DNA from: Lachnospiraceae bacterium
GTDB taxonomy: Bacteria > Bacillota > Clostridia > Lachnospirales > Lachnospiraceae
Assembly: GCA_017469405.1 (NCBI GenBank)
Contig: JAFUGL010000116.1
Location: 1-39,085 of the forward strand
Direction: 5' to 3'
Length of the DNA stretch: 39,085 nt
Part shown: piece after piece, positions 28,111-32,306 of the stretch
Position numbering within the stretch: the first letter of the stretch is position 1
How the letters are laid out: each line of letters opens with the position of its first letter
Made by a program: the position numbers and the translations under genes
Notes under the pieces: model-generated
Told to the model about the DNA's origin: nothing
Seen by the model: the letters and a program-made list of their open reading frames with translations, nothing else
Databases searched by the model: none

Positions 28111-28209
28111 CTATCATAGATTAAGTGTTATTTGAGTTTACATAATTTTATAATAAGTATTTTAAGTAGTTAGATGATATAGTATTTTGAGTAAAAATTG
28201 GAGCAATTT

Positions 28210-30123
28210 ATGTTTAAGATAAGAAAAAATAAAATCATATATTTTCTTTTGACCTTGGTGTTATTGGTCAATGTCTTTTATTTCGGACAAGATAAGATTC
28301 TTATAGTTCATGCAGAGACATCAGCTCAAATTAGTGAAGGTGTTACAAATGTCAACTTTAGAGTTGAACCAAATGGTAATGCTGTAACCGATGAAAATGG
28401 TAAGGGTATAAAGCTTAACGGAGGACAGGAACTTACCCTTCTCGATACTACTAATTCGGCATGGTATAAAGTTTCGGTCGTTTATAATGGTGCAACATAT
28501 ACAGGATATGTATCCTCACAGTTTGTTACAATAAATAATGGTTCGTCAGGTGCTTTGGTTTCAGGTAGCAGCGAGGCAGATGAATCGTCAGTGGAGGAGG
28601 ATAGTCAGCTTGGAGCTTCATCTGATGCGGATTTTGAAGCACAGCTTACAGCACAGGGATTTCCGGAGAGCTATAAGGTTCTTTTAAGAGATATACATGC
28701 ACTTCACCCAACCTGGCAGTTTAAAGCGGTACAGACTGGAATTGATTGGAGTACACTTATTGCAAATGAAGTAAATAAGCAGGGACAGATTAAGAATCTT
28801 ATATATGGAGCATCATCGGCTCCTCATTATAATTGGAGAAGTATAACAATTGGTTACAATCCGGCTACCAATACTTGGTCACCATATGATGGAACTATCT
28901 GGTTTGCTGCATCTGATGATTTGGTAAAGTATTATATTGACCCGCGTACATATCTTTATGAAAATTTTGTGTTTGTGTTTGAAAGTCTTTCTTATCAGGA
29001 AGGTGTTCAGAATAAACAGGGAGTTGAAGCAATATTAAAAGGCTCCTTTATGTATAATGCAACGCCACCGGGAGAAACAAAGCAATATTCAGATATTATT
29101 ATGGATGCTGCTGCACAAAGCGGAGTAAGCCCGTATCATATAGCTTCCAGAATAAAACTTGAAATGGGCAATACGGGTGGAGTAGCAGCATTGGGTACAA
29201 GTGCAACCTATCCGGGAATATATAATTATTTTAACATAGGTGCATTTGATACTGCCAATGGATCACCGGTTGAGAAGGGCCTTTATTGGGCATCACAATC
29301 AGGTAGTTATGGAAGACCATGGAATACTGTTTCAAAAAGTATAGTAGGAGGTTCGCAGTATCTGGGAGCATCATATATACAAAGAGGACAGGATACACTT
29401 TATACTCAGAAATTTAATGTTACTTATACCGGTAATCTTTTCAATCACCAGTATATGTCCAATATTCAGTCTCCAACAACGGAAAGCAGGACAAATTATA
29501 ATGCATACAAAGCTAATAATCTGCTTGATTCAACTATGGTATTTAAAATACCGGTATATAAAAATATGCCGGAAAGTGCCTGTGTAAAGCCTGCTGATTC
29601 GGGAAATCCTAATAACTGGCTTAAGTCACTTGATATAGCCGGATATACTATTACACCTACATTTGCTGTTAATAATGTAACGGATTATTCTCTCATTGTG
29701 GATTCATCGGTTTCATCTATAAAAGTATCAGCATCGCCGGTTGTTTCTACGTCATCTGTATCAGGAACGGGTAATATAAATCTGATAGAAGGAACAAATT
29801 ATATAAAGATAAATGTAACTGCTCAGACAGGAGCTGTTAAAACATACACACTTACTGTTGTAAGAGGTAATTCATCTTCCGGTTCACAGACAATAGGAAA
29901 TGATGGATCAGGAGGAAACACCGGCGGTACATCAAGCGGTGTTAAGGGAGATATCAATGGGGATGGTAAGATATCTATACTTGATATAGTTAAGATACAG
30001 AGAGTTATTGTTGGACTTGATTCAATGGATATGATTTGCGATTTGAATGGTGATGGTAAGGTTTCTGTACTTGATATAGTTAAGCTTCAGAGACATATTG
30101 TTGGAATAGAAACTATAAATTAG
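28210..30123 (+). CDS. Secreted SH3-domain beta-N-acetylglucosaminidase with cadherin-like domain and C-terminal dockerin
   Basis: A 637-residue exported autolysin-type enzyme. A signal peptide (1 to about 37) is followed by an SH3b domain ('VNFRVEPNGNAV...YTGYVSSQFV'), an acidic Ser-rich linker, and a glucosaminidase domain of the LytD/GH73 kind (about 140-430), with the likely catalytic Glu318 in 'ASRIKLEMG' and 'YPGIYNYFNIGAF'. Then comes a cadherin-like beta-sandwich (about 460-560), a Gly/Ser linker and two dockerin type I repeats (about 580-633): 'GDINGDGKISILDIVKIQR' and 'CDLNGDGKVSVLDIVKLQR', each with a complete calcium-binding loop. It should cleave peptidoglycan glycan strands while held by a cohesin; the next gene encodes one. 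GGAG precedes the ATG at 28210; a TTG at 28198 is less likely. Confidence 0.9.
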   Translation: MFKIRKNKIIYFLLTLVLLVNVFYFGQDKILIVHAETSAQISEGVTNVNFRVEPNGNAVTDENGKGIKLNGGQELTLLDTTNSAWYKVSVVYNGATYTGYVSSQFVTINNGSSGALVSGSSEADESSVEEDSQLGASSDADFEAQLTAQGFPESYKVLLRDIHALHPTWQFKAVQTGIDWSTLIANEVNKQGQIKNLIYGASSAPHYNWRSITIGYNPATNTWSPYDGTIWFAASDDLVKYYIDPRTYLYENFVFVFESLSYQEGVQNKQGVEAILKGSFMYNATPPGETKQYSDIIMDAAAQSGVSPYHIASRIKLEMGNTGGVAALGTSATYPGIYNYFNIGAFDTANGSPVEKGLYWASQSGSYGRPWNTVSKSIVGGSQYLGASYIQRGQDTLYTQKFNVTYTGNLFNHQYMSNIQSPTTESRTNYNAYKANNLLDSTMVFKIPVYKNMPESACVKPADSGNPNNWLKSLDIAGYTITPTFAVNNVTDYSLIVDSSVSSIKVSASPVVSTSSVSGTGNINLIEGTNYIKINVTAQTGAVKTYTLTVVRGNSSSGSQTIGNDGSGGNTGGTSSGVKGDINGDGKISILDIVKIQRVIVGLDSMDMICDLNGDGKVSVLDIVKLQRHIVGIETIN

Positions 30124-30170
30124 ATATTTTGAATTAATTAATCATAATTTGTAATGGAATGGAGATTGCT

Positions 30171-32306
30171 ATGAAAAATATTAAGAAGATTTTGACAATG
30201 ATTTTAGTATTGGTTATGTGTCTTAATTTTGGTACACTTGATTCTAAAGCCGCAGCATCAGTAAGTATAGCTCTTTCAACCGGTTCGACAAGTATAGGTG
30301 GAAGTGTTTCTGTTACTGTAAGTGTAAGCGGTTCTGATATTTCAGCATATGATATCTATGTTTCATATGATTCAAGTGTTTTGCAATATAATTCCGGAAG
30401 CGGTGCCGCACAGGCAAATGGCGGAGGTGGAACCATAAGACTGGTTGGAACAGGAGCAGGTTCTACAACACTTTCATTTACAGCTGTAGGAAATGGTTCG
30501 TGTTACATTTCTACAAGTGGAACAGAATGCTATGATATAAATTATAATCAGATATCAATCAGTCATGGTGGTGCCAGTGTATCAGTTTCAACTCCGACAC
30601 CTTCAGATAATGGAAATAACAACAATAATAATGATAATGACAAAACAGAAGATACAACAACAGAAGAAGATGACCGTTCAGCAAACTGTAATTTAAAGAG
30701 TCTTCAGATTTCTCCTGGTACTTTGGAACCTGCTTTTTCACCATCAACCACATCTTATTTCGTACAGGTTGATGAGGATGTTACAAGCATGGTTGTAAGT
30801 GCTGTTGCAGAGGATGATAAGGCGACAACTACCGTACGTGGCGCAGGCCTTATCGAACCGGGAGCAAATACTGTAACGGTTACCGTTACTGCAGAAAATG
30901 GAGCTGTTAAAGTTTATACACTTAGTGTTGCAGCCGGTGAGGTGCTTGGCGATGCAAAAACAACTATAGACGGTATAGAATACGATTTTGTTCAAAGCAG
31001 CAACGGACTTGAAATACCGGAAGGGTATAATGAGATAACAGCTGAATATAAAGACTGGGAGGTACTTGCATTTGAGTCTCCTAATAAAAAAATCATTTTG
31101 GTATGTCTTAAGCCGAATGATATAAATGATGGTGAGGATGATGAATTAAAGTGGTTTATATATGATAAAGATAAGGAAAGTTTTTTACCATACAGAGAAT
31201 ATTCATCTGAGTTTAACAGATATGTTATTATTGAAGCACCTGAAGGGGTTGTTATACCTGAAGGTTTTGAAAAAACAGAGCTTGATATAGGAGGAATTGG
31301 AGAAAAGGTAACTGTTTATAAATCAGATAATATAAATGATAAAAATATATATCTGGTATATGCAATTAATATAGCGGGAGATGAGGGCTTTTATTGGTAT
31401 GATGCAAAGGAAAAAGCATTTCTAAGATATGCCGAAAAAGAAATTACTGAGCCTGCTTATGAGGTCGCAACTGAGACTATGGCAACACCTGCTGAACCGG
31501 AAGTAATTGAAAAGACAGAACCTAAGGATGAGGGCTTTTTCAGCAAAAAGAATCTTGGAATAATTTCTATTGCTCTTGGAGTTATTGCATTTCTTCTTAT
31601 AATTGTTATTATTACTCTTGCTACTATGCTTAAGTCAAAGAATAGTGAAGAGGAAGCAAAAGAGGATGCTGATGACATGACCGGAGTTGATTCTAATGTT
31701 TCATTTGATGAAAACATACCGGAAAAAGAAAGTTTATCAGATCAGAATATAATTAACGATTCTGCTGAAACTGTTGTTACAGAGGAAATGGTTGAAGAAG
31801 AGGCTAGAAAAGCGTATGAAGAGGATAGGGAAATTAGTCAGAATATTCCGGCAAGCTTTGATTTATCTAATATGCAGGATGGAAATGAAGTAGAAGATAG
31901 AAATATCAGTATAATGAGTTTTAAGAAAAAGGAAGAAAATAAAGAAGAAAAGCCTGAGGAGAAACCTGAAGAAAATAAAGAGGAAAAGCCTGAGGAGAAA
32001 CCTGAAGAAAAGATAGAGGAAAAGCCGGAGGAGAAACCTGAAGAAAATAAAGAGGAAAAGCCGGAGGAGAGATCAGAAGAAAAGATAGAGGAAAAAACTG
32101 AAGAAAAGTCAGATGAAAAACCGGAGGAAGATATAGAAATCATCAAATTTAATTTCCCGGATAATAATGATGACTTAGATGAAGAAAAAATTAAGAAAGC
32201 ATTTGAAAATGATTTTGAGAAACAGGCTGAGGCAATAAATAATAAGATAAAAAATGATTATGATGCCGAAAAAGATAGTGCATTTTCAGATGATTCAGAT
32301 AAATAG
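30171..32306 (+). CDS. Membrane-anchored cohesin-domain protein with cadherin-like domain and repetitive acidic cytoplasmic tail
   Basis: A 711-residue type I membrane protein. A signal peptide (1 to about 29) precedes a cohesin-like beta-sandwich (about 30-140: 'VSVTVSVSGSDISAYDIYVSYDSSVL' in two overlapping blocks, then a Gly-rich stretch). An Asn/Asp/Thr linker leads to a cadherin-like beta-sandwich (about 178-260) matching the one in the upstream enzyme. A further extracellular region (about 270-440) is unassigned. One membrane helix (about 462-487) is followed by 'KSK' and a ~220-residue acidic tail with 'KPEEKPEENKEE'-type repeats (about 588-650). It probably holds the dockerin glucosaminidase at the surface through cohesin binding. 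The gap from the preceding gene is 47 bases, so co-transcription is likely. GGAG precedes the ATG. Confidence 0.82.
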   Translation: MKNIKKILTMILVLVMCLNFGTLDSKAAASVSIALSTGSTSIGGSVSVTVSVSGSDISAYDIYVSYDSSVLQYNSGSGAAQANGGGGTIRLVGTGAGSTTLSFTAVGNGSCYISTSGTECYDINYNQISISHGGASVSVSTPTPSDNGNNNNNNDNDKTEDTTTEEDDRSANCNLKSLQISPGTLEPAFSPSTTSYFVQVDEDVTSMVVSAVAEDDKATTTVRGAGLIEPGANTVTVTVTAENGAVKVYTLSVAAGEVLGDAKTTIDGIEYDFVQSSNGLEIPEGYNEITAEYKDWEVLAFESPNKKIILVCLKPNDINDGEDDELKWFIYDKDKESFLPYREYSSEFNRYVIIEAPEGVVIPEGFEKTELDIGGIGEKVTVYKSDNINDKNIYLVYAINIAGDEGFYWYDAKEKAFLRYAEKEITEPAYEVATETMATPAEPEVIEKTEPKDEGFFSKKNLGIISIALGVIAFLLIIVIITLATMLKSKNSEEEAKEDADDMTGVDSNVSFDENIPEKESLSDQNIINDSAETVVTEEMVEEEARKAYEEDREISQNIPASFDLSNMQDGNEVEDRNISIMSFKKKEENKEEKPEEKPEENKEEKPEEKPEEKIEEKPEEKPEENKEEKPEERSEEKIEEKTEEKSDEKPEEDIEIIKFNFPDNNDDLDEEKIKKAFENDFEKQAEAINNKIKNDYDAEKDSAFSDDSDK
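31936..32128 (+). repeat. In-frame tandem repeats coding for Lys-Pro-Glu-Glu units
   Basis: Degenerate direct repeats of 12 bases (such as aagcctgaggag and aaacctgaagaa), grouped into longer ~36-base blocks, encode KPEE/NKEE/KIEE units in the cytoplasmic tail of the cohesin protein. Near-identical blocks suggest slippage or recombination, so copy number may vary between strains. Confidence 0.8.

Follow-up and report, generated by a model that had tools for sequence, protein, structure and literature searches.

A dockerin-bearing autolysin and an adjacent membrane protein with a cohesin-like domain: a probable dedicated pair in Lachnospiraceae

The window analyzed here is a whole stretch of 39,085 nucleotides, contig JAFUGL010000116.1 of assembly GCA_017469405.1, from a Lachnospiraceae bacterium of the rumen whose genome is 91.5% complete. 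A preliminary description of this DNA placed in it two neighboring genes, 47 bases apart, encoding a dockerin-bearing autolysin and a transmembrane cohesin protein, and the coordinates confirm both the positions and the spacing. We refer to these as genes A and B; their features are as follows.

28210..30123, + strand: gene A, encoding a secreted SH3-like, glucosaminidase, cadherin-like and dockerin protein of 637 residues
28414..28527, + strand: SH3_3-like domain of gene A (22.6 bits, short of the 27 set by Pfam as cut-off)
28654..29592, + strand: SagB/AtlA-like N-acetylglucosaminidase domain of gene A
29161..29163, + strand: codon for Glu318 of gene A (numbered from the ATG), aligned with a Glu of AtlA
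29647..29865, + strand: cadherin-like domain (PF12733) of gene A
29944..30099, + strand: type I dockerin of gene A, with two F-hand loops
30124..30170, + strand: 47-base gap between genes A and B
30171..32306, + strand: gene B, encoding a single-pass membrane protein of 711 residues with an N-terminal cohesin-like domain
30267..30587, + strand: cohesin-like domain of gene B
30693..30929, + strand: cadherin-like domain (PF12733) of gene B
30954..31493, + strand: juxtamembrane domain ("MID") of gene B, conserved in relatives
31554..31616, + strand: predicted transmembrane helix of gene B
31617..32303, + strand: acidic tail of gene B, predicted to be cytoplasmic, with EKPEE repeats and about 36% Asp plus Glu

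Gene A starts at the ATG at 28210, with a GGAG at 28200-28203, and gene B runs from the ATG at 30171 to a stop codon that ends at 32306; no terminator-like site was found on the + strand of the gap at 30124-30170. The signal peptides of both proteins were read by eye. The dockerin of gene A matches Dockerin_1 (PF00404) with 35.1 bits against a cut-off of 22.9, and both of its loops are intact and of the form DxNxDGxxxxxD, in agreement with the two complete type I loops first reported; a type I dockerin profile matches 55 of 55 aligned dockerins at an E value of 0.01. The glucosaminidase domain matches the AtlA chain in the PDB with an E value of 5.6e-12, and the alignment column of Glu318, which we take to be the catalytic acid, is invariant across 38 aligned relatives; against the NCBIfam model for SagB the domain scores 43.8 bits, far below the cut-off of 425. 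The SH3b domain originally assigned beside the glucosaminidase corresponds to a match below threshold. A cadherin-like domain common to both proteins, also part of that description, is recovered by PF12733 above its cut-off of 24.2, with 31.9 bits in gene A and 37.8 in gene B.

The cohesin assignment is borderline, and the weak link of the argument, when judged on the sequence of gene B alone: against Pfam Cohesin (PF00963, cut-off 24.1) the whole protein scores 11.5 bits, the genome search gives 21.2, and the isolated domain reaches 25.3. A family profile built from 53 aligned related domains, 46 of which match PF00963 at an E value of 0.1, finds 3l8q as its best match among PDB chains (E 2.2e-9). 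The first 27 PDB rows comprise 19 named scaffoldin or cohesin, four NagJ and two "Endoglucanase" rows that we presume to be cohesin chains as well, and two others (7urp and 9qf3); weaker rows include unrelated antibody chains. Cohesins adopt a nine-strand jelly-roll fold. By sequence, we take the domain of gene B, first described as cohesin-like, to be a short and divergent cohesin. Apart from the signal peptide, the only hydrophobic stretch in the gene B protein is a single helix, and no LPxTG motif was found in it. In Pfam and the PDB nothing meaningful matched the MID at 30954-31493; this domain is widespread in the family and shows two apparent repeats (P-x-GF ... YDxxExTFxRY).

At an E value of 10 the source genome yields one dockerin match and one cohesin match, and these lie in the adjacent genes A and B. 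Given that the genome holds a single cohesin match, gene B would be a receptor rather than a scaffold, and we do not retain the term "mini-scaffold" from the preliminary description. The pair was searched for in relatives and is found in 35 of the 37 genomes of a genus sample that includes the source genome, on the same contig and adjacent by coordinates (the cohesin gene of G006 is cut short by the contig end). Both proteins are present in 18 of 18 genus genomes with at least 90% completeness and at most 5% contamination; the two genomes that lack the pair are 71% and 64% complete. Exactly one dockerin match was obtained in 29 of the 35 genomes with the pair, and exactly one cohesin match likewise in 29. 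Among congeners with extra dockerins, an additional cohesin match lies at a distance of 0.4 to 11.4 kb on the same contig in G019, G020 and G021 (below the cut-off in the first two), and none is shown for G022, G032 and G016. The dockerin lies between the SH3 and glucosaminidase domains in G021, G035 and G036, with the cohesin gene still next (read at locus L062). The Pfam cut-off for dockerin is passed in 35 of the 37 genus genomes and that for cohesin in only 10, nine of them at gene B, whereas with the family profile a cohesin is recognized in 35; some apparent gaps in the distribution of cohesins may therefore be cohesins under the threshold.

The two repeats of the dockerin provide a further line of evidence. 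Our set of 101 entries (some loci twice) gave 62 parsed dockerins after 39 that did not fit the two-repeat pattern were dropped, and 48 unique ones after removal of 14 identical sequences; seven of the 48 have no cohesin recognized next door by the family model. At positions 10, 11, 13, 14, 17, 18 and 21 the repeats of one protein are identical in 81-92% of proteins, compared with 23-51% between proteins (30-51% at positions 10, 11, 17 and 18) in a shuffle that ignores relatedness, and no within-protein excess was seen among the 48 proteins at positions 2, 8, 16 and 19. Positions 10, 11, 17/18 and 22 are, we assume, the known recognition sites. Partner-facing residues thus vary between species yet match within a given dockerin, the pattern that two-faced binding would predict. 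The recognition residues differ, for example, among the pairs of the window, L028 and L089.

We posit, with a rough probability of 0.6, that genes A and B form a dedicated one-enzyme, one-receptor pair in which the dockerin would dock the autolysin on the membrane cohesin. On the sequence evidence, the most likely role of gene B is that of a membrane receptor dedicated to the autolysin, so that the cell's own wall enzyme would probably be kept at the membrane by the pair. Starting from what is directly observed (domain identities based on sequence, adjacency, single copies in the genome, conservation, and the symmetry of the dockerin repeats), we infer binding, calcium dependence, membrane-proximal cutting and any signaling through the tail, which may be arranged as follows. 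The secreted glucosaminidase A would fold its C-terminal dockerin with calcium and bind through it to the cohesin-like domain of the single-pass protein B. Docking would keep this autolysin, which cuts glycan strands, at the outer face of the membrane next to new peptidoglycan, so that strands would be cut close to the membrane, and B would connect the enzyme across the membrane to an acidic cytoplasmic tail that may position it.

A search with gene A gave 70 named loci, most of them from metagenome-assembled genomes of Lachnospiraceae of the gut and rumen and some from Oscillospiraceae and other Clostridia; they include Eubacterium ruminantium FB3002 (L078), which has the pair and was the Hungate genome covered, and the pair is absent from some of the 70. 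We also surveyed a family sample of 200 genomes, about one per genus, in which the cohesin profile matches 115 genomes, the glucosaminidase profile 100 and the Pfam dockerin model 75. A glucosaminidase gene directly precedes a cohesin gene in 73 pairs from 72 of the 200 genomes, and in 36 of the 73 the glucosaminidase carries a dockerin. Of the 36 genomes with dockerin-bearing pairs, 31 have a single dockerin match, which among the matches listed lies at the glucosaminidase gene in at least 25; it lies elsewhere in G161, and its positions in G052, G053, G080, G091 and G132 fall outside the matches listed. Two loci depart from the usual arrangement: at L160 (G109) the dockerin match splits the glucosaminidase match in two instead of lying at the C terminus, and at L202 (1426-4890) the membrane cohesin gene has as its neighbor a glucosaminidase of another family (PF01832) that also ends in a dockerin, which favors the proposed pairing.

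Several observations weigh against a dedicated pair. The cohesin gene is kept in the 37 of 73 pairs whose glucosaminidase has no dockerin; 28 of the 36 genomes with such pairs have no dockerin match at an E value of 0.001, and in the remaining eight a dockerin occurs elsewhere, with none in the stretches upstream of the gene A copies. A match to Pfam Cohesin is kept in 29 of 32 dockerin-paired domains and also in 14 of 18 and 11 of 13 domains of two dockerin-less groups. Cohesins unpaired with a glucosaminidase account for 50 matches in the family sample, and 15 of the 31 such loci that we fetched adjoin LCP-type genes. We also placed 171 glucosaminidases on a tree; 61 of them have both a dockerin and a cohesin neighbor, 49 the cohesin only, 43 neither and 18 the dockerin only. 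Once the tree is taken into account, dockerin presence and cohesin adjacency are not significantly linked (median p 1, from six supported independent pairs). Dockerins occur across much of this tree, with at least 14 changes that, under the midpoint root used, may be gains or losses, and in two large clades the cohesin occurs mostly without a dockerin. With glucosaminidase controlled for, dockerin and cohesin give a partial Mantel correlation of 0.218 (46 pairs, p 0.0005), slightly above the 0.188 of the dockerin-cadherin control, so this test adds weak support over the controls. Lastly, in one dockerin-bearing group of Clostridia the first domain of the neighboring protein mostly has no match to our cohesin model. 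At loci L111-L115, L117, L122, L125, L126, L128, L129 and L132 of Clostridia the neighbor in the cohesin position begins with another domain or a highly divergent one, and several C-termini end in RGRHS or GKHS.

These observations lend themselves to an explanation in which the cohesin of gene B is a general beta-sandwich domain that binds a wall polymer or shared ligand, contact with the dockerin is absent or secondary, and a common process alone links the genes. Retention of the cohesin without an enzyme-borne dockerin in half of the pairs, the dockerin-free genomes, and the LCP-linked cohesins, 13 of 15 of which match Pfam Cohesin, all fit it. It does not account, however, for the symmetry of the dockerin repeats at the recognition positions, for single dockerins beside single cohesins, or for a dockerin that has been relocated within gene A while the pair was kept, and we regard it as rather unlikely. 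What the survey does change is the scope of the original proposal: tethering of a wall hydrolase to the membrane remains the best reading, but dockerin binding as the sole role of the cohesin protein does not hold, since that protein also stands beside dockerin-less autolysins and LCP genes.

A dockerin that serves another cohesin, in another protein or on a neighboring cell, or that is the relic of a cellulosome-type system, is much less probable still. Among the 33 regions fetched for glucosaminidases without a recognized cohesin neighbor, five contain a dockerin, and four of these (G134, G193, G194 and G216) come from genomes with 18-29 dockerin matches, in which another cohesin could therefore serve; in the fifth, G111, the neighbor has a weak MID match and an unrecognized first domain. 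Dockerin-containing wall hydrolases have also been published in cellulosomes (PMC6403190). For the source genome, the lack of a second cohesin match at an E value of 10, in an assembly that is 91.5% complete, and the two intact and similar calcium loops speak against this reading. Association through the cadherin-like domains, with the dockerin only strengthening the contact, is about as improbable: the domain does occur in 65 of 73 cohesin genes of glucosaminidase pairs and in none of the 15 LCP-linked ones (Fisher p 1.5e-11, relatedness ignored), but in three pairs only gene B carries it and in six only gene A does, and such domains are common in surface proteins.

The proposed pair of genes A and B would then sit within a broader family of envelope proteins, for which the dockerin is one of the ligands and not the defining feature. 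The LCP family attaches polymers to the wall; eight of the 15 LCP-type neighbors were scanned, all eight matching LytR_cpsA_psr, and the other seven were judged by eye. At L203-L205, L207, L208, L211-L213, L215-L217 and L219-L222 a gene for a cohesin-MID-membrane protein that lacks the cadherin-like domain directly follows the LCP-type gene, and by eye the C-termini of the LCP partners show no common end. At L209, L225, L227 and L230 the gene ahead of the one for the cohesin-MID-membrane protein looks, by eye, like purD.

Two short motifs recur in this wider set. An acidic motif of the F-I-D-L type occurs within the last 14 residues of 59 of 127 cohesin-MID-membrane proteins, compared with about four expected from shuffles, the pattern having been chosen after the data were seen (a first pattern was too narrow) and near-identical rows having been kept. 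By group, it is present in 14 of the 15 LCP-linked proteins, 19 of the 24 of Hungatella type, 13 of the 58 that are dockerin-paired, none of the 12 triple-SH3 proteins and 13 of the 18 others. The tail of gene B has no motif of this type; several proteins of the window's clade carry DSAF near the C-terminal end instead. Of 22 glucosaminidases from the Hungatella-type clade, which lacks the dockerin, 14 have at their C terminus, as read by eye, a GPGGSNVTI-type peptide, and GPG occurs 119 times in the inserts and C-termini of these glucosaminidases against 22.2 expected from shuffles. The peptide sits where relatives have the dockerin (L095-L101, L103, L121, L142, L147, L171, L174 and L181). 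Of 12 such genomes searched with a corresponding DNA pattern, six have it, once each at the glucosaminidase gene; a further match, in G069, codes for Cys rather than Ser. It is conceivable, though we hold it as tentative, that the cohesin-MID-membrane protein is a general Lachnospiraceae receptor for enzymes that build or cut the wall (a glucosaminidase or an LCP ligase), that its ligands are exchangeable (a dockerin in some lineages and a GPGGSNVTI-type peptide in the dockerin-less clade), and that a conserved tail motif couples it to an intracellular partner.

Cohesin-dockerin modules are seen mainly as devices for harvesting polysaccharides and are best known from machines that digest plant fiber. 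If our reading of genes A and B is correct, they serve the cell's own wall in bacteria without a cellulosome, and the pair offers a testable route to how Lachnospiraceae localize an autolysin. Our searches of open-access papers listed none on a dedicated membrane cohesin-autolysin pair, and a study of cohesins and dockerins outside cellulosomes (Peer et al. 2009) may mention such proteins. The nearest working analog is the SagB-SpdC system of Staphylococcus aureus, in which SpdC is a multi-pass protein and, to our knowledge, neither protein bears a cohesin or dockerin. In that system a membrane protein scaffolds a glucosaminidase and sets strand length (PMC10581084). The resemblance, an N-acetylglucosaminidase of the SagB/AtlA kind held and oriented by a membrane protein, would be one of analogy and not of membership; SpdC, unlike gene B, is a CAAX protease homolog, and SagB is itself membrane-associated (PMC10581084). 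We rejected membership in this system, as gene A falls short of the SagB cut-off and gene B has one helix and no CAAX-protease-like Pfam match. Membership in a cellulosome, with a scaffoldin of several cohesins and many dockerin enzymes, was likewise rejected on the single cohesin and single dockerin match in the genome.

Among cohesin-dockerin systems, the cellulosome of Ruminococcus champanellensis has lysozyme activity and dockerin-containing cell-wall hydrolases, for which the term "lyticome" has been floated (reviewed in PMC6403190). It shares with our pair a dockerin on a peptidoglycan-degrading enzyme and differs in being a scaffoldin system (PMC6403190), whereas here we found one dockerin match, one cohesin match and no scaffoldin. 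ScaE of Ruminococcus flavefaciens resembles gene B in having one cohesin on a cell-surface anchor protein; unlike gene B, which has a membrane helix and no LPxTG, it is anchored by sortase through an LPXTG motif and itself anchors a cellulosome (PMC2930009). In R. albus a single cohesin is thought to anchor isolated dockerin enzymes, which is similar to our proposal in using a cohesin for surface attachment rather than for a cellulosome, although that organism has many dockerins and few cohesins (PMC6118326) where the genome studied here has one match to each.

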